Shown: positions 50,470 through 58,922 of the stretch, piece by piece
How positions within the stretch are numbered: the stretch's first letter is position 1
How the letters are laid out: each line of letters opens with the position of its first letter
Assembly: GCA_019694875.1 (NCBI GenBank)
Contig: JAIBBC010000003.1
Location: forward strand, 1 to 64,000
DNA length: 64,000 nucleotides
From: Cyclobacteriaceae bacterium
Lineage (GTDB): Bacteria > Bacteroidota > Bacteroidia > Cytophagales > Cyclobacteriaceae
Reading direction: 5' to 3'
Position numbers and translations under genes: made by a program
The notes under the pieces: generated by a model
The model's input: only the letters and a program-made list of their open reading frames with translations
The model's database searches: none
What the model was told of the DNA's origin: nothing

Positions 50470-50766
50470 TTAACCAAACGTCAGGAGTATGCCGGGCAGA
50501 TCCAATGGATCGCGACTGATGCACAATGGAGACGTACCGGTGTGGGTTCTGAATTGCTGTGGATCATGGCGGGCTGGTTTGTCGAGAACCAGGTTGCGAG
50601 TGTGCGGGTTGATCTTGATCCGGACAACAACACTGCGCAGTCATTCTATCAACATCATCATGCCGCCAGTATCAACCGGTATTGGCTTTATTGGGACGAC
50701 ATCGGAATTGTTCACACAGACCGCGGGCCCTCCGGCAAGCAGTCAGGAAAAAAAGCAGACATATGA
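50443..50766 (+). pseudogene. GNAT acetyltransferase remnant (N-terminal half lost)
   Basis: An in-frame stop at 50440-50442 is followed by a GNAT C-terminal half: VVIGFVAGHL (strand 4), QIQWIATDAQWRRTGVGSEL with the R-x-x-G-x-G acetyl-CoA loop, and VRVDLDPDNNTAQSFYQ (strand 6 plus the Asn/Tyr region). The first 60-80 residues expected for a GNAT are absent in every frame. A GTG at 50542 could still start a 74-residue peptide. The break coincides with the first gene of the polysaccharide operon. Confidence 0.75.
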
Positions 50767-50855
50767 GATCGAACATTACCAGCCGCTATCGCGAAACCGC
50801 TATACTCATCGTGATTATTCTGACGATCATGTTGCTGACAACAATATTCTCATAA
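50763..50855 (+). CDS. Possible 30-residue single-span membrane peptide
   Basis: ATG overlaps the GNAT remnant stop as ATGA. Encodes a basic N-terminus (MRSNITSRYRETA) followed by a hydrophobic span (ILIVIILTIMLLTTIFS) and TAA. Good membrane-peptide pattern, but too short to judge coding by eye. Confidence 0.35.
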   Translation: MRSNITSRYRETAILIVIILTIMLLTTIFS

Positions 50856-50858
50856 GCA

Positions 50859-51353
50859 TCATCGCATCCGGTAGCTCCGGTACACAAACAATCCGATTAC
50901 ACCAATCACGATACCTGAAACAATCAGTATCATTACCGGATGAATTCCCGAATCATTCGGGTTTAGGTTCGTGATTGTTTCGTACGTAAGCCAGAGTATA
51001 ATTCCGCTGACCACCAGTTTAAGAAACCGTATCAGCCGGATCAGGTTGCTGTATTGCCGCTGATAGTTTTCCGGTGTGATAACGACCGGATAGCGTAGCT
51101 TGTCCGGCCTGCGGCCGAGTAATGTCAGCAAGCCGTGAATCGAGAAACCAAGAAGGGGTAAGATCCAAATCAAAACTTTAGCTCCGAAGCCATTGGGTTC
51201 TCCTGAAAAGGAATAATGAATTGGAATCTGATCAGACAACAAAGCATATTGTTCGGTAATCATCACCACAGTTTTAATCAATAAAGAAAGCGCGACCACT
51301 TCCAGTAATAAATCAAACGAGGTGAAAGGTCTTTTTAAATCGTGGATCGTCAT
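50859..51353 (-). CDS. DUF1648-type membrane protein
   Basis: 164 aa from the ATG at 51353; the frame goes on to a TTG at 51389. Four hydrophobic spans and the DUF1648 signature near SDQIPIHYSFSGEPNGFGAK, as in SdpI-like and related membrane proteins. Function unknown. Upstream of it lies one of the triple TTTAAT sites (opposite orientation to the gene). Confidence 0.75.
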   Translation of the reverse strand: MTIHDLKRPFTSFDLLLEVVALSLLIKTVVMITEQYALLSDQIPIHYSFSGEPNGFGAKVLIWILPLLGFSIHGLLTLLGRRPDKLRYPVVITPENYQRQYSNLIRLIRFLKLVVSGIILWLTYETITNLNPNDSGIHPVMILIVSGIVIGVIGLFVYRSYRMR

Positions 51354-51428
51354 GAACAACAACTGATCTTTATACGCTAAACGTTTCAATAATCCATTGG
51401 TTTATTTTTTTTAGAATTGCAGAGCACT

Positions 51429-51456
51429 TTTAATTTCGATTTAATGTCGATTTAAA
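51429..51456 (+). promoter_or_regulatory. Triple 11-bp direct repeat, site C
   Basis: TTTAAT at 51429, TTTAAT at 51440, TTTAAA at 51451: an exact 11-bp period. Lies in the gene-poor gap 51354-51647 above the DUF1648 gene, with the repeats pointing away from it. Confidence 0.65.
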
Positions 51457-51647
51457 CACAGGTCGGAATTCTACACTGCTTAGTAACTAGTCCGGAAGAA
51501 GGGAAGACTCTGAATTCACCCTCCGATTCGTTCTCAGACACAACAAAATACCTGATGTATGGCTTTAGCTGTTCGGTGGGTAAATAGTTTTCGAATTTCA
51601 ACGTCACATGTATGGATCATGCACAGCCTAAAGTACGGATTACCGAT

Positions 51648-52679
51648 TCATCCGGCAACAGGCCATAATCGAAACATCGGCAGAATCCGCCCGAATAGTT
51701 TGTTGATAATTCCAGGAATCATACTACCCACGGACACATGAACGGTATCGACTGTACCCCGGATAGGAATGCGGATCGAGATCTTATCCTGTCGACCGCT
51801 CCCGATTCCTTTAATCGCAAGCGCAATACCCCATTCCCATACCTTGTTGAAAAATCCTTTGTCAAAATCATCCCGGCCACGAACCTGCACATTTGATATC
51901 GCAGGTTCAAGGTATCCGGTGACAATCCCTTCGTCAGTTTGAACTTCAGCGCAGACATCCAGTAACCCGGCCGCAACATCAAAGCGCATATATTTTCTAA
52001 GGAATGGATTCAAATAGGGAAGGCGTGCACGGTCCAAGAGGATATGCGATGCAAACGTAAGTTTTTCAGCACGGGCATCTATCGTTCCGGTAACGTGCAG
52101 TGTACCTTCAAATACTTCACTGTTTATCCGGAAGGTCGTTTGATGAACTTTTGTGAAGTTATTGGTCAGGTTGTCGATGTGGCACGAAACGGACCGCAGC
52201 ATAATTGTATTAAGTTCATCATCCATACAATACGATACCTCGCTTGCTTCGATCGTCAGTGATACGTTAAAGCAAATCAACGTGCGTATTCGGGAATGAA
52301 TTTCGTGATACAGCTTATCCAGCGAAATTTCCGGATCCGGACGATGAATTATCTTAGCTGATAACCTTTTTATGTTAACCGATGCTGCAATCTCACGATG
52401 CCATAAACTTCTCCAGGAAAGCTTGATAATGGTAACCGGTACATGCAAAGAAAAAGTCGATTCCTCAGCATGTAATGGATCATGTATGGATTCGAGTTGC
52501 ACATCGTATAAGACGATTTGCCCGCGTAAAAGTTCTAGTTTAACCTGACGTGCGCTTCCTATGAATTTGCTGGATGTGTTCAGTTTGTGATTGATGAACA
52601 TCCGAATCAGTACCGGCATACCGATCCACATCAAAGCCGTGAGGCATAACGCGATGAAAATGATTAACAAGATACCCAT
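51648..52679 (-). CDS. DUF748/AsmA-like membrane-anchored protein
   Basis: 343 aa. N-terminal membrane anchor (ILLIIFIALCLTALMWIGMPVLI), then a beta-rich periplasmic region with short strands like those of AsmA/DUF748 proteins, e.g. LHVTGTIDARAEKLTF, FDVAAGLLDVCAEVQT and ending ISIRIPIRGTVDTVHVSV. This family includes lipid-transfer-like envelope proteins; exact function unknown. Divergent from the DUF1328 gene with a shared regulatory gap. Confidence 0.75.
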   Translation of the reverse strand: MGILLIIFIALCLTALMWIGMPVLIRMFINHKLNTSSKFIGSARQVKLELLRGQIVLYDVQLESIHDPLHAEESTFSLHVPVTIIKLSWRSLWHREIAASVNIKRLSAKIIHRPDPEISLDKLYHEIHSRIRTLICFNVSLTIEASEVSYCMDDELNTIMLRSVSCHIDNLTNNFTKVHQTTFRINSEVFEGTLHVTGTIDARAEKLTFASHILLDRARLPYLNPFLRKYMRFDVAAGLLDVCAEVQTDEGIVTGYLEPAISNVQVRGRDDFDKGFFNKVWEWGIALAIKGIGSGRQDKISIRIPIRGTVDTVHVSVGSMIPGIINKLFGRILPMFRLWPVAG

Positions 52680-52754
52680 AGTTCTCTAACAAGTTCAAAG
52701 AACAAGCCAAAGTGTGGAAATAAGTTGGGTACCGTTGATTCAAAATTCAACGAT

Positions 52755-52782
52755 TTTAATATGAATTTAATCAGGCTTTAAT
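52755..52782 (+). promoter_or_regulatory. Triple 11-bp direct repeat, site A
   Basis: TTTAAT at 52755, 52766 and 52777, exact 11-bp period, 57 bp upstream of the DUF1328 ATG and pointing towards it. The end of the third repeat reads GCTTTAATGC, as at site B. Confidence 0.75.
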
Positions 52783-52838
52783 GCTGTCGGGCTTGGCACG
52801 ATTTTATACGAGCTTAGTGAAACCAAACACACATCACT

Positions 52839-52997
52839 ATGTTACGCTGGGCTGTTATATTTGCGATCATTGCCATTGTTGCCGGAATATTCGGCTTCGG
52901 GGGAATTTCAGAGAGTGCTGCAGGAATTGCCAAGGTACTCTTCTTTATATTTGTAGTCATCTTTGTTGTTCTGCTGATTGCAGGCCGCAGAAGATGA
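52839..52997 (+). CDS. DUF1328 small membrane protein
   Basis: 52 aa, two hydrophobic spans: [20 protein letters not shown], a short AAGIAK loop, then [18 protein letters not shown]. Matches the DUF1328/UPF0391 small-protein family by length and by the GFGGI-AG-A-IAK core. Often found among stress-responsive genes; function unknown. Preceded by the triple TTTAAT site. Confidence 0.85.
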
Positions 52998-53068
52998 TCA
53001 ACTAAGTACTGCTTGCAACAAATTTAGTTCGGGAGGATTCGTTGCGTTGTTTTCATAATTCCGGAATT

Positions 53069-53094
53069 AAGGGCTGCTGCGTACAGCTTTTTTT
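53069..53094. terminator. Terminator between DUF1328 and ClC genes
   Basis: Stem AAGGGCTG / CAGCTTTT (two G-T pairs), 7-nt loop, followed by a run of T. Lies between convergent genes. Confidence 0.55.
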
Positions 53095-53104
53095 ATGCTG
53101 CTCG

Positions 53105-54865
53105 TTAATCAACTTTCATCCGCTCGCGGTACGTTGAAAATATCCGCGACTTGGAAATGAACCCGGCATACTTGCCTTCCTGAATTACAGGAATATTCCA
53201 GACTCCGGATTTATCAAACTTCTCCATGATTGCACTCATAGGCTCTTCCGCATCAACCGTTAGCACGGGTGGCTGCATCAAATCAGTAACCTTTGTAACA
53301 TCATACAGGGATGCGTTGAACATGATTTCGCGAATGTTCTCCAGGTAGATAACTCCCGCAAGTGTTCCATTCTCATTCAATACCGGAAAGATGTTGCGTT
53401 TGGAGTTGGCCACTTTGTTCAATAATTCTCTCAAGGTGTGCTGCGAGGATACAGCGACAAAGTCCCGCTCGATGAATGACTTGGCAGAAAGTTCGGATAG
53501 GACATGTGTATCTTTGCTGATACCGGCCATACCACCATCTTCTTCAAGCTTGGCCTGATCAAGTGATTTAGGATTAAGATATTTGGATACGGCTGTACTC
53601 AGGGCCGACACAATCATTAACGGAATGATCAGGTCGTAACCGCCTGTGATCTCGGCAATCAGGAAGATAGCTGTTAACGGAGCATGAAAGATACCCGTGA
53701 GTAAACCGGCCATCGCCACCAGCGAGAAGTTTGAAGTCGGCAAGCCGCCAACACCCGTAACATTAATCAGGAATGAGAATGCAAAGCCGATACATGCGCC
53801 TACCAGAAGGGCAGGAGCAAAGTTGCCACCGTTGCCACCGGCACTCAGCGTACACGTGACTGCAACAACTTTAACGAGCCCGACAATCAATACAAGTAAC
53901 CCCAATCGAACCGGATGGTGGGCAACAAATTCGAACAACGGACTATCGGTAAACAGTTGACCGGGATCAAGCGTAGCAAGCGTGATGATCGATGAATATC
54001 CTTCTCCCAGTAAGGGCGGGAACAGTACGATCAGCCCGCCCAGCATACTCACGCCAATTAAAAATCTCAGCCAATGGTGTTTAATTGTTTGCCGGAAGAA
54101 TCCCTCCAGGCTGCGGAATACCCGCAGATAAAAAACCGATACAAGCCCGCAGACAATTCCTAGCGCTATATAGTAGGGCACATTGTGATAGTTGAAATTA
54201 CTGATATGCCGGAACGATAATAATATGTTTTCCGACAGGATGATTTTCGAACAAAGCGCACCAGTTGCACCGGCAATCAACAAGGGAATGAATGCACTGA
54301 TGCTGATATCCACCAGCAACACTTCGAGCGCAAATAGTACGCCCGCAATAGGTGCATTGAAGGCCGTTGCAATTCCGGCAGCTGCCCCGCAGGCCAGTAA
54401 TAAGGTCCGGTTACGGAACCCGATCGGAAAAAATGAAGCGAACGTTGATCCAATGGCAGAACCTGTTTGCACAATGGGCGACTCCAGACCAGCCGAACCA
54501 CCAAACCCAACCGTCAATGCGCTGGTGATTGCATGACTGAACGTTTCTTTACGCGGTAATCGAGATGACTTATTTGCAATGGCGAGCATCACATGCGATG
54601 TTCCCTTTTGCAGATCGCCTTTTAGTACGAAATGAACAAAGGCCAGGCTCAACAAAATCCCGACAGCCGGAGCAATCATGTATAACAGGACAGATGTGCT
54701 GGCCATTGTTCGGATCTGTTCCTGAAGATAGTGCACAGAAATCTTTAACAGCACAGCGGTAAGTCCAGCCCAAACACCCACGATCACTGCACCGATGATG
54801 AGCAGCTGTTTCTCGGGCATTCTTTTGACTAGTGAGTGAAGCGTGGCGCGGAATTTAATAAACAT
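53105..54865 (-). CDS. ClC-family chloride channel/antiporter with CBS pair
   Basis: 586 aa. Membrane part about 1-425 with about 11 helices: FGGSAGLESPIVQTG carries the gating Glu128 (equivalent of the GREGP Glu), AAAGIATAFNAPIAGVLFALE, and GNGGNFAPALLVGACIG for the anion path. C-terminal 445-580 is a CBS domain pair (ERDFVAVSSQHTLREL, PPVLTVDAEEPMSAIM, and VWNIPVIQEGKYAGFI), which usually senses adenylates. Upstream gap carries triple TTTAAT site B, on the far strand. Confidence 0.95.
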   Translation of the reverse strand: MFIKFRATLHSLVKRMPEKQLLIIGAVIVGVWAGLTAVLLKISVHYLQEQIRTMASTSVLLYMIAPAVGILLSLAFVHFVLKGDLQKGTSHVMLAIANKSSRLPRKETFSHAITSALTVGFGGSAGLESPIVQTGSAIGSTFASFFPIGFRNRTLLLACGAAAGIATAFNAPIAGVLFALEVLLVDISISAFIPLLIAGATGALCSKIILSENILLSFRHISNFNYHNVPYYIALGIVCGLVSVFYLRVFRSLEGFFRQTIKHHWLRFLIGVSMLGGLIVLFPPLLGEGYSSIITLATLDPGQLFTDSPLFEFVAHHPVRLGLLVLIVGLVKVVAVTCTLSAGGNGGNFAPALLVGACIGFAFSFLINVTGVGGLPTSNFSLVAMAGLLTGIFHAPLTAIFLIAEITGGYDLIIPLMIVSALSTAVSKYLNPKSLDQAKLEEDGGMAGISKDTHVLSELSAKSFIERDFVAVSSQHTLRELLNKVANSKRNIFPVLNENGTLAGVIYLENIREIMFNASLYDVTKVTDLMQPPVLTVDAEEPMSAIMEKFDKSGVWNIPVIQEGKYAGFISKSRIFSTYRERMKVD

Positions 54866-55218
54866 GAGGTTCCGTACAGAGCGAATTGAATGTTGTCAGT
54901 TGCATGTGTTGCTTAAGACTGCATAAACGATGTAATAAAATCCTTTATGCGGATCTCATGCAACGAAAAGTCAGCAAAGTAACAGGATATCAGATAAAGT
55001 GTCGCTTCAGTTCGTGGTTGACAAGGAATTTTAAACACGTTTATGCTTTAGCGCATGGTTTAAGGTGATTTTAATCTCGATTTAATAAAGCTTTAATGCC
55101 AGATTTGGTGCGATGATGCGGCCGCGAACTGTTCTTTGTGAGGAGCAACTTGCTCAGACTTTAGCATTGATTACCCGATGCGGGAGCAATAATGTATGTA
55201 TAAAACAGAAAATTTGTG
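54866..55218. other. 353-bp gene-free gap between ClC and TPR genes
   Basis: Contains the triple TTTAAT site B and a TTTG at 55104-55107 with no well-spaced TAnnTTTG. No credible ORF or hairpin seen in the rest. Confidence 0.6.
55070..55097 (+). promoter_or_regulatory. Triple 11-bp direct repeat, site B
   Basis: TTTAAT at 55070, 55081 and 55092, exact 11-bp period, 122 bp upstream of the TPR gene start and pointing towards it; ends GCTTTAATGC like site A. Confidence 0.75.
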
Positions 55219-56832
55219 ATGAAGAAGATTGTGGGTTTCGCATTGTCATTCGTTTTTTCGTTAGGGATCACGTTCGGGCAACAGGAAGAAATACAAAAAG
55301 CAAAACGTCAACTTGATATTGACCATACCGCGCAGGCCGTTGCTTTGCTGGAGCCAGCCGTTGCCCGGTATCCGAAAGCTGGTAATGTTTATTATTATCT
55401 GGGCTATGCACAACTCAGGAACAATCAGTTGGATGCGGCCGCCAAGTCGTTTGATACCGGTATCGCAAAGTTTCCGAAAGAAGCGATAAACTATGCAGGC
55501 AAAGGCCATTTGCAAATGATCCAGAAACGTCCAACAGACGCAACGGCTAACCTGAACAAAGCACTGCAACTTTCCAAGTCTAAAAAGGTTCCGGTACTTA
55601 AGGCAGTTGCTCAAGCTTATCTTTCCGATCGTAGTTCAGCTGCGAAAGCTTTGCCCTTGTTGCAGAAAGCAAAGTCTATTGATAATGACGCTGAAGTTGA
55701 AATCCTGTTAGGTGATGCCTATCTCATGCAGAACCAAGGTGGTCCCGCTGCAAGCGCGTATGAAAACGCTGCACTGCTTGATACTAAATCCGGCAAACCG
55801 CATTACAAGATTGGCTTGATCTATTCGCGGGTAAATCCCACACTTTCGCAACAGTCTTTTGAGAAATCCGTAGCGGTAGATCCTGAATTTACAGCTTCGT
55901 ATGATGAACTCGCGGATATCTATTACCAACAAAAGGAACCTCAGAAGGCGGTTGCGGCTGCTGAAAAATTCAGGCAACTGAGCAGTGATCCGGACAAGAT
56001 CCAAATGCGCCTGGCATTTATCTATGTGATGAATGGAGAGTACGCAAAAGCTAATACCATCTTTGCCAGTCAGATGAATAAGGAAACCGTCAAGCCATTG
56101 GTGTACCGTTATTACATTCGTTCACTACAGGCAACTAAGGTTCCGCAGGACTCACTGGAATCTGTAAAAGTTTCGGAACAGTTTCTCACGAAGGCATTGG
56201 TGGAAGATCTTACTGCTCGCGATTTTGTTGATCTTGGCAAACTGTACATCGCCCTCAACCAGGATTCATTAGGCGAGATTCAACTAAAACGTGCCATTGC
56301 TTTTGATCCGGAGAGCATCGAAGCTGCGCAACTTCATGCTGAGATGTTGTATAAGAGTAAGCGATATGAAGAAGCGGCCGAAGCCTATGAGAAGTTGGTG
56401 GAAGTTAAAGATAAACCAAGTCCAAATGAATACCTCAACCTTGCACGTGCATATTCGATCAGCGAGCAATATGAAGAAGCTGATACGGTTTATGTCAAGC
56501 TTGTAGAACAGTATCCAACCAATATTCAGGTTGCGGTGGAGTCCGCTCGGGTGAAGGCCAATATTGATTCCACACAAGACGATGGCCTTGCCAAGCCACT
56601 GTATGAAAAGGTTATCGAACTGGCAGAGGCATCTCCGGAGAAGTATAAAGTTTATATGATTGAGGCTTATAAGTACATGGGTTCATACTTTGCCATTCAG
56701 GAAGGAAACGTTTCAAAGGGTAAGGCTTATTTTGAAAAAGTACTCACGCTGAATCCGGAAGATTCGCAGGCGAAAGAAGTGCTCGAAGCAATTCGGGCTG
56801 GACAGATCCAATCTGGTAAAAAAACGGGATGA
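55219..56832 (+). CDS. Secreted TPR-repeat protein
   Basis: 537 aa; ATG at 55219 follows an in-frame GTG at 55216. Signal peptide (IVGFALSFVFSLGITFGQ), then about 12 TPR units (AVALLEPAVARYPKAGNVYYYLGYAQL, YEEAAEAYEKLVEVKDKP, KGKAYFEKVLTLNPEDSQAKEVL). Periplasmic scaffold of unknown target. Site B lies in its upstream region. Confidence 0.82.
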   Translation: MKKIVGFALSFVFSLGITFGQQEEIQKAKRQLDIDHTAQAVALLEPAVARYPKAGNVYYYLGYAQLRNNQLDAAAKSFDTGIAKFPKEAINYAGKGHLQMIQKRPTDATANLNKALQLSKSKKVPVLKAVAQAYLSDRSSAAKALPLLQKAKSIDNDAEVEILLGDAYLMQNQGGPAASAYENAALLDTKSGKPHYKIGLIYSRVNPTLSQQSFEKSVAVDPEFTASYDELADIYYQQKEPQKAVAAAEKFRQLSSDPDKIQMRLAFIYVMNGEYAKANTIFASQMNKETVKPLVYRYYIRSLQATKVPQDSLESVKVSEQFLTKALVEDLTARDFVDLGKLYIALNQDSLGEIQLKRAIAFDPESIEAAQLHAEMLYKSKRYEEAAEAYEKLVEVKDKPSPNEYLNLARAYSISEQYEEADTVYVKLVEQYPTNIQVAVESARVKANIDSTQDDGLAKPLYEKVIELAEASPEKYKVYMIEAYKYMGSYFAIQEGNVSKGKAYFEKVLTLNPEDSQAKEVLEAIRAGQIQSGKKTG

Positions 56833-56891
56833 TTTAGTTAATTGTCCGAAAGCCGCATCTTTAAGTTGCTAACTTTTAATATCTGCACCGG

Positions 56892-57293
56892 ATGCGAAAG
56901 GTTTTTTACTGCGATGATGATCAAGATGATTTGATGATGCTTCGGGATGTCATCCGAAAGATCGATCCCGAAATTGATTTTGAGTTCACTGATGATAGCG
57001 AGACAGTGTTAAACATCTTACACGCTTCTGCAAAATTGCCGGACGTGATTTTCCTGGATATCAACATGCCACGGGTTTCCGGAACGGAACTTCTACAGGA
57101 ACTGAAAAATGATCCAACGCTGAAGAGTATACCGGTGTTTATGTACAGTACAACCAGAGAGTCAATGGAAGCTAATCGTTGCAGGGAGTTGGGTGCCGAA
57201 GATCTGCTTCAAAAGCTTCCCGGCATGGAAGAATCGTTCGTTCAGATTCGATCAGCACTAGCCCAACTTCAGCTTGTCGGCATGGCGCAGTAA
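56892..57293 (+). CDS. Single-domain response regulator (receiver only)
   Basis: 133 aa. Receiver with YCDDDQDD acidic pocket, phospho-Asp56 in VIFLDINMP, and switch T/S in FMYSTT; Lys in LLQKLPG. No output domain, so it probably shuttles phosphate or acts by protein contact. Starts 59 bp after the TPR gene. Ends 3 bp before the convergent membrane protein. Confidence 0.9.
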   Translation: MRKVFYCDDDQDDLMMLRDVIRKIDPEIDFEFTDDSETVLNILHASAKLPDVIFLDINMPRVSGTELLQELKNDPTLKSIPVFMYSTTRESMEANRCRELGAEDLLQKLPGMEESFVQIRSALAQLQLVGMAQ

Positions 57294-57725: not shown

Positions 57726-58922
57726 TCAAAATCTTTTCATCCTTCTGATATAATCCTTATCAATTGCCTTTTGAGTATAAATCATCGTGGATCTTAAGTC
57801 GGCATGGCGAAGGGTTTTTTGAATAAGTTCAAGATCAAAACCCTTCTCATACATGATTTGCCCAGCAGTATGTCTTAAGCTGTGGGGTGAGTATTTTCCT
57901 TTAACTCTAAGTTTTCTGAAGTAAATCCCAACCAATTCGTCAAGTTCTGCACGAGTAAGCATCGGAAATACTTTTCCCTTCTTTATCTTATTCTTCTTAA
58001 GATAACTACTAAGCTCTCTTTTAACGGTTGAAGACATTTTAATAACTTCTTTTGACTTCTCGCTTCTGCCTTTGCCCCATACAGCTATTCTCCCCTGGTC
58101 AAATTTAATATCACTTACAAAAACGCGTAACACCTCTATAGATCGAAAACCGTTCCATGCCATTAAAGAAAGGATTGCTCTGTCTCTTTTACTTTTGGCT
58201 AGCACAAGCAGTCTATCGCGTTGCTGTTCAGTCAGGCTATCTTTATGGTACGTTGTAGTAAGTCTTCTGGGTAGAACAACTCGCATCGATGCAATTTCTC
58301 TCAAAGATTGAGCGCTGATCTTTCTTAGTGCAGATCTTATTTGACGTTGTTCTTTTGAAAGTTCAGATGTTTCAAAACCCTGATAAGCTAACACCCATTC
58401 ACAAAATGATTTCAGCACCGTTTTGTAAAGTCGCTTAGTGTAGTCAGATAGGCTGGGGGAGAGAATATACTTTCCGGCAGTTCTTTTATTAATTCTTGTA
58501 ATATCATCTTTGATGGAAAGAAAGTAGCCATTCAGGACGGTGGCGTAAATTGAGGTACTTCCCTTTGACCTCAGTCTATCTTGGATTGACGCAAGAAACA
58601 GCTTGACATAAATATTTGATATAGGAAGTCTCGGTTCATTGAGATCGTTGATCAAAAGCTGTATTCTCTTAGATTCTAGAAACTTGCGAAACCGATTCAG
58701 AATCGATCGGAGCGAGGTGTTTTTCTGCTGGATGTAATCAGCGAGCTGAGATAACACATCTCCACCAGGCTTATAAGTCTTAAGAAACGACTTTGCATTA
58801 ACCAGGTAAGCTCCAGTTACTCCATACTTTCGCTTCAGCCAATATTCATAGTCAACCAAAATCTGGCTAGCCGTGGCAATTGGTTTTGATATCTCTTTCC
58901 CAATCTCAATAATATTGCTCAT
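57726..58922 (-). CDS. Tyrosine-type site-specific recombinase (integrase)
   Basis: 398 aa. N-terminal SAM-like DNA-binding half, C-terminal catalytic domain with Arg in NGFRSIEVL (about 260), a Lys in WGKGRSEK, His347 and Arg350 in HSLRHTAG, His373 in TLRHADL and the nucleophile Tyr382 in MIYTQK. All catalytic residues are present. Expected to integrate or resolve DNA at a target site. Reads leftwards. Confidence 0.92.
   Translation of the reverse strand: MSNIIEIGKEISKPIATASQILVDYEYWLKRKYGVTGAYLVNAKSFLKTYKPGGDVLSQLADYIQQKNTSLRSILNRFRKFLESKRIQLLINDLNEPRLPISNIYVKLFLASIQDRLRSKGSTSIYATVLNGYFLSIKDDITRINKRTAGKYILSPSLSDYTKRLYKTVLKSFCEWVLAYQGFETSELSKEQRQIRSALRKISAQSLREIASMRVVLPRRLTTTYHKDSLTEQQRDRLLVLAKSKRDRAILSLMAWNGFRSIEVLRVFVSDIKFDQGRIAVWGKGRSEKSKEVIKMSSTVKRELSSYLKKNKIKKGKVFPMLTRAELDELVGIYFRKLRVKGKYSPHSLRHTAGQIMYEKGFDLELIQKTLRHADLRSTMIYTQKAIDKDYIRRMKRF

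Follow-up and report, generated by a model that had tools for sequence, protein, structure and literature searches.

The arrays and the genes beside them

The stretch of DNA analysed here (the window) comprises the first 64,000 nucleotides (nt) of contig C4 from the genome of a Cyclobacteriaceae bacterium, and the feature of interest is a short array of the hexamer TTTAAT, which is found at three sites within 3.7 kb. Array A (51429..51456, + strand) has the units TTTAAT, TTTAAT and TTTAAA, and lies upstream of a DUF1648 gene on the minus strand, from which it points away. Array B (52755..52782, +) has three perfect units and lies between the divergent genes for a DUF748-like protein (-) and a DUF1328 protein (+), its end falling 56 nt before the ATG of the latter, while array C (55059..55097, +) has four units, TTTAAG and then three TTTAAT, between the divergent genes for a ClC-type protein (-) and a TPR protein (+), with 121 nt between its end and the TPR start codon (ATG, 55219). 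At all three sites the spacing of the units is exactly 11 base pairs (bp), or one helical turn; eight of the ten units are TTTAAT (the exceptions being the TTTAAA of A and the TTTAAG of C, at 55059), and the ending GCTTTAATGC is common to B and C. An earlier note on this DNA had reported the three sites, at 51429, 52755 and 55070, with this exact spacing and with a common ending at two of them, and all of this is confirmed; the TTTAAA that it placed in site C is actually the last unit of A, and its count of three units per site overlooked the upstream TTTAAG of C.

With up to three mismatches allowed, the window contains four matches to the array pattern at the three sites (two of them overlapping at C), as against a mean of 0.21 (standard deviation 0.48, largest 3) in 100 shuffles of the window. 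The repeats are real, and they exceed what would be expected by chance. A search of positions 50500-57000 against Rfam gave no matches.

Three of the five genes beside the arrays are candidates for divergent or reversed control. These are the DUF1648 gene (50859..51389, -; Pfam PF07853, 44.2 bits, cut-off 28.7), which has a TTG start in the list of open reading frames (ORFs) and an ATG further in, and which is a possible target of A; the DUF748-like gene (51648..52679, -; PF05359, 46.6 bits, just under the cut-off of 50), a possible target of B; and the gene for a ClC-type chloride channel or transporter with CBS domains (53105..54865, -; PF00654, 258 bits, and PF00571, 57.1 bits), a possible target of C. 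The other two are the likely targets of B and C respectively, namely the gene for the DUF1328 small membrane protein (52839..52997, +; 52 amino acids, identified from PF07043 at 55.1 bits, cut-off 27, and from its translation) and the TPR gene (55219..56832, +). Since 389 other genomes drawn from the order contain no match to the DUF748-like gene at E≤1e-35, the gene cluster of the window looks special to the line of this genome.

Arrays in the rest of the genome

When the whole genome (4.68 Mb in 5 contigs) was scanned with at most one mismatch, there were five matches on one strand, none on the other and none with a reversed control pattern. Four of the five are those already described in the window (two overlapping at C), and the other, array D (C3:463101-463128), stands before a paralogue (C3:463281) of the window TPR gene. 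Arrays at this threshold are confined to sites A-C and D, and all four are intergenic (genes being called from the ORF lists). Allowing two mismatches gave six matches as against one for the control, the sixth being at C1:1480953, while two-unit sites with at most one mismatch numbered 86 as against 50 (sub-matches of the arrays being counted). A wider pattern, YTTAAK, returned only the same five places at one mismatch and gave four matches in the control, so that it adds no support.

The pair of TPR genes allows a closer comparison. The two proteins are 66-68% identical, and when C and D are overlaid at the array, identity is 75% over the 28-bp array, as against 19% over 160 upstream positions and 22% over 125 downstream; the distance from array to ATG is 121 nt for C and 119 nt for D. 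The array and its distance from the gene would thus appear to have been retained before the two paralogues, or gained twice, while their surroundings changed. A third TPR paralogue in this genome (C5:86286) has no array.

Linkage to an OmpR-type regulator in other Bacteroidota

In a scan of 59 genomes (58 relatives together with that of the window), 25 have an array match with at most one mismatch, and in several relatives there is a recurrent gene order in which an OmpR-type regulator and a histidine kinase are followed by the array and then by a SulP-type transporter (assigned by Pfam); in some such loci carbonic-anhydrase-like and UspA-like genes, recognised by eye, come next. Linked 11-bp ladders of T(T/C)TAAT precede SulP, DabA or RND transport genes in Bacteroidota, and in one genome (G040) a pair of arrays is oriented towards a SulP gene and a DabA gene, while the regulator pair lies on their other side. 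The longest array with varied spacers that was encountered, consisting of six perfect TTTAAT units (L042:5866-5926, or C1:7957865-7957925 of G040), stands before an AcrB-type RND operon. In two relatives (G008 and G015) arrays beside an MsrA-like gene stand where two genes converge, and we attribute these to chance.

When named genomes were scanned for exact four-unit arrays, at least 120 loci were obtained, with titles for 80. Among the 120 listed, 36 have a regulator and/or kinase of the same clade within the fetched DNA, and the remaining 84 divide equally into 42 simple tandem repeats and 42 that are not. The 36 linked loci are not independent, many being from Pedobacter, apparently with Czc-type efflux operons, and one (L180), in which the regulator is about 3.8 kb distant, comes from Bacillota and was left out of the set used below for spacers. 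The converse approach is to select for the regulator alone: 30 loci were fetched in this way from 67 listed regulator matches, and in 17 of them a four-unit T(C/T)TAAT ladder at 11 bp is present with at most three mismatches, while none of 1800 shuffled loci (shuffled letter-wise within 60-base blocks) has such a ladder at that threshold. Fifteen of the 30 are from the same genus as the window, and the 12 closest of these carry the ladder; the other three (G009, G002 and G012) have none at up to three mismatches. In G012, at locus L284, four units of NTTAAG type (CTTAAG, CTTAAG, GTTAAG, CTTAAG), again with an 11-bp period, come directly after the kinase gene of another such regulator-kinase pair; they are near the PmrA/QseB half-site and look like a sister operator type.

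Among the relatives, the 31 genomes that have the regulator clade gave 44 array hits as against 18 for the control, and the 27 in which it was not found gave 18 as against 17 (the window genome being left out of both groups); because matches that overlap within a single array are counted separately, the corresponding p=0.0013 is optimistic. The T(T/C)TAAT ladder is physically linked in Bacteroidota to a CusR/HprR-like OmpR-type regulator and its kinase. For both of the linked regulators tested, the best NCBIfam match was the CusR/HprR/CzcR-like "heavy metal" response regulator family TIGR01387 (244.4 and 226.6 bits), the curated cut-off for which is 279.2 bits, so that they are similar to that family but not members of it by cut-off.

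Linked arrays also have a characteristic position relative to the promoter. In 32 of the 36 linked loci the last unit is followed at exactly 10 nt by the dinucleotide TA, and in 29 of these NNNTTG comes next; TANNNTTG accordingly occurs at this distance in 29 of the 36, as against none of the tandem-repeat group (42 loci) and 4 of the 42 others; for TA alone the corresponding figures are 8 of 42 and 11 of 42. In the regulator-selected loci TA falls at exactly this position in 7 of the 18 arrays printed. This geometry is common in the linked clade, but not universal. It recalls TAnnTTTG, described as the sigma-A -7 box in Flavobacterium (PMC9723704), and many linked arrays stop exactly 10 nt before such a box.

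Comparison with known operators

In form, the arrays are of a known kind, the tandem OmpR-type operator, in a multi-unit version seen in Bacteroidota. The closest named counterpart is the box of PmrA (BasR), of the OmpR/PhoB family, which is described as having the half-sites CTTAAG and XTTAAT 5 bp apart, XTTAAT being the second half-site in verified Salmonella boxes (PMC3973317). The hexamers here are likewise arranged head to tail with 5-bp spacers (giving the 11-bp period), and TTTAAT fits XTTAAT as given in that source. Unlike the PmrA box with its two half-sites, there are three to four units in this genome and up to six in G040, and the first PmrA half-site is CTTAAG or CTTAAT rather than TTTAAT; no PmrA was found in the window genome, none of its six Trans_reg_C domains being so named. 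A survey of literature on response-regulator direct repeats, PmrA boxes and Bacteroidota OmpR regulons, the coverage of which omits most subscription journals, yielded no title or abstract describing such arrays.

To our knowledge, few operator sequences of two-component regulators from Bacteroidota have been established. A readable operator, consisting of three to six TTTAAT or TCTAAT units at 11 bp, often with a -7 box exactly 10 nt further on, and tied to a widespread CusR/HprR-like regulator, would allow target genes to be called from sequence in many genomes, while the window offers a clean test of the fate of such operators where the linked regulator is not found.

Interpretation

Taking these observations together, arrays A-D are probably operators of an OmpR/PhoB-type response regulator, serving a very small regulon of about five genes and one paralogue. 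We infer the binding of a protein at the arrays, the family of that protein, its control of the genes and the direction of that control. Winged-helix domains of the OmpR/PhoB type would bind head to tail, one to each TTTAAT half-site and all on the same face of the helix, and the presence of three or four half-sites a turn apart may favour cooperative loading. With four arrays in the genome, the regulon would comprise the DUF1648/DUF748/DUF1328/ClC/TPR cluster of the window and the TPR paralogue; the likely targets would be the DUF1328 gene and the two TPR genes, with DUF748 and ClC reached divergently and the array reversed for DUF1648. That all five window genes form one regulon is plausible. 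An OmpR/PhoB-type operator had been proposed in the earlier note, and that reading gains support because the same ladder is elsewhere linked to an OmpR-type regulator and kinase; the regulator of the linked clade, on the other hand, was not found in this genome. The note had further suggested a stress regulon, but the systems linked to the ladder elsewhere precede genes for anion, inorganic-carbon and efflux transport, rather than indicating a role in stress.

A number of observations weigh against the arrays being operators of this kind. The arrays of this genome resemble those of the linked CusR/HprR-like clade in that at least three T(T/C)TAAT units, with an 11-bp period, precede genes; unlike them, they are accompanied by no clade regulator in the genome (no matches at E≤1e-48), TA occurs at the 10-nt position in none of the four, and their spacers are not clade-like. 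For the last comparison 35 of the linked loci supplied 105 spacers, and the mean score against these is -1.15, which is matched by 26% of random sets. Any -7-like box between the arrays and their genes is no better than in shuffled sequence. The orientation of array A, reversed relative to the DUF1648 gene, counts in the same direction, as does the distribution of the arrays among relatives. The orthologues of the D-type TPR gene in two genomes of the same genus (G009 and G002), though 85% identical, have no array, and in G009 the whole 19-kb stretch at the orthologue contains no three-unit match with fewer than four mismatches; array D was therefore gained in the line of this genome or lost elsewhere. 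The DUF1328 genes of nine relatives are also without an array, the best three-unit match having three mismatches (G028) and the rest four to eight. The enrichment over the genome and the conservation in relatives on which the earlier note would have judged the pattern thus diverge: the arrays are enriched over the control and are intergenic, while they were not found at these TPR orthologues or DUF1328 genes.

As to which protein would read the arrays, the genome has six Trans_reg_C domains, belonging to five response regulators and one membrane-anchored winged-helix protein (P0002). None of the six is in the window (C4:1-64000), in keeping with the earlier statement that no OmpR-type regulator is encoded there, and none is in the linked clade. 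The five response regulators reach at most about 36-37% identity to the linked clade, the members of which have a mean of 57% and a lowest value of 44% among themselves (the regulator tree has long branches and weak deep forks, and only identities and scores are used here); with the linked kinase as query, matches in this genome begin at residue 121 or later of 453. Two of the response regulators were considered individually. One, at C3:476453, is 13 kb from D, and its case is weakened by its orthologues in G009 and G002, which occupy the same position but have no arrays close by; for the other, a PhoB-like regulator (C5:58045), we infer that a phosphate regulon should have more than four sites (the pst genes were not looked at). 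The winged-helix protein (L079:5700-6548, -; C4 at about 945.7-946.5 kb) has 282 amino acids, with an apparent N-terminal membrane segment, a C-terminal Trans_reg_C domain and no receiver domain, and may be a one-component membrane regulator.

It is possible, though doubtful, that this operator class has outlived its own regulator here, the ladder having passed to a different regulator and serving, through promoters with their own geometry, a gene set not seen together in relatives; the candidates for such a takeover would be the five OmpR-type response regulators and the membrane-anchored winged-helix protein (C4:945708). Alternatively, the clade regulator and kinase might be present in an assembly gap or an unassembled replicon, so that the arrays would be ordinary targets of the linked system. 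Such a gap is conceivable with five contigs, and clade members at E≤1e-48, some of them distant, are present in 15 of the 16 same-genus genomes, but the assembly is rated 100% complete and the arrays have neither the geometry nor the spacers of linked arrays, which makes this explanation unlikely.

Loss of the regulator could also have left the arrays as orphan relics, now functionless, and the arrayless TPR and DUF1328 genes of relatives, like the missing clade, would fit such a history; units that are near-perfect while their spacers vary, and the retention of both the array and its distance from the gene in two paralogues with flanks that can no longer be aligned, make it a distinctly improbable one. 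We consider it similarly improbable that the reader of the arrays is a protein outside the OmpR family which polymerises along direct repeats, such as a BldC/MerR-like one. BldC, described as forming cooperative multimers on direct repeats (PMC5859096), provides a precedent, and a search of this genome for a matching regulator of OmpR type found none; against this, the same ladder occurs elsewhere in linkage with such a regulator, and its unit and spacing agree with a box known from the OmpR family (no candidate gene of the BldC/MerR-like kind was searched for). Chance, or a bias of A+T-rich intergenic DNA, may well account for single one-mismatch arrays in relatives (as in the 27 genomes without the regulator), but is very improbable here because of the excess over shuffles, the five matches as against none in the control, and the grouping of three sites within 3.7 kb with a fourth, D, before the paralogue at near-equal distance.

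Other observations

Beyond the TPR gene the window encodes a stand-alone receiver-domain protein (56892-57293, +) and a tyrosine recombinase of the phage integrase family (57726-58922, -). This integrase gene begins 0.9 kb past the TPR gene, and a genomic island is at most conceivable here.

Elsewhere in the genome, and unrelated to the arrays, the leucyl-tRNA synthetase ORF (L243:406-3633, -; C3 at about 918.4-921.6 kb), of 1076 amino acids, contains an endonuclease-like domain, DUF559, in frame at residues 326-430. The domain separates the first catalytic portion from the editing domain and looks like a mobile in-frame insert in this essential gene.

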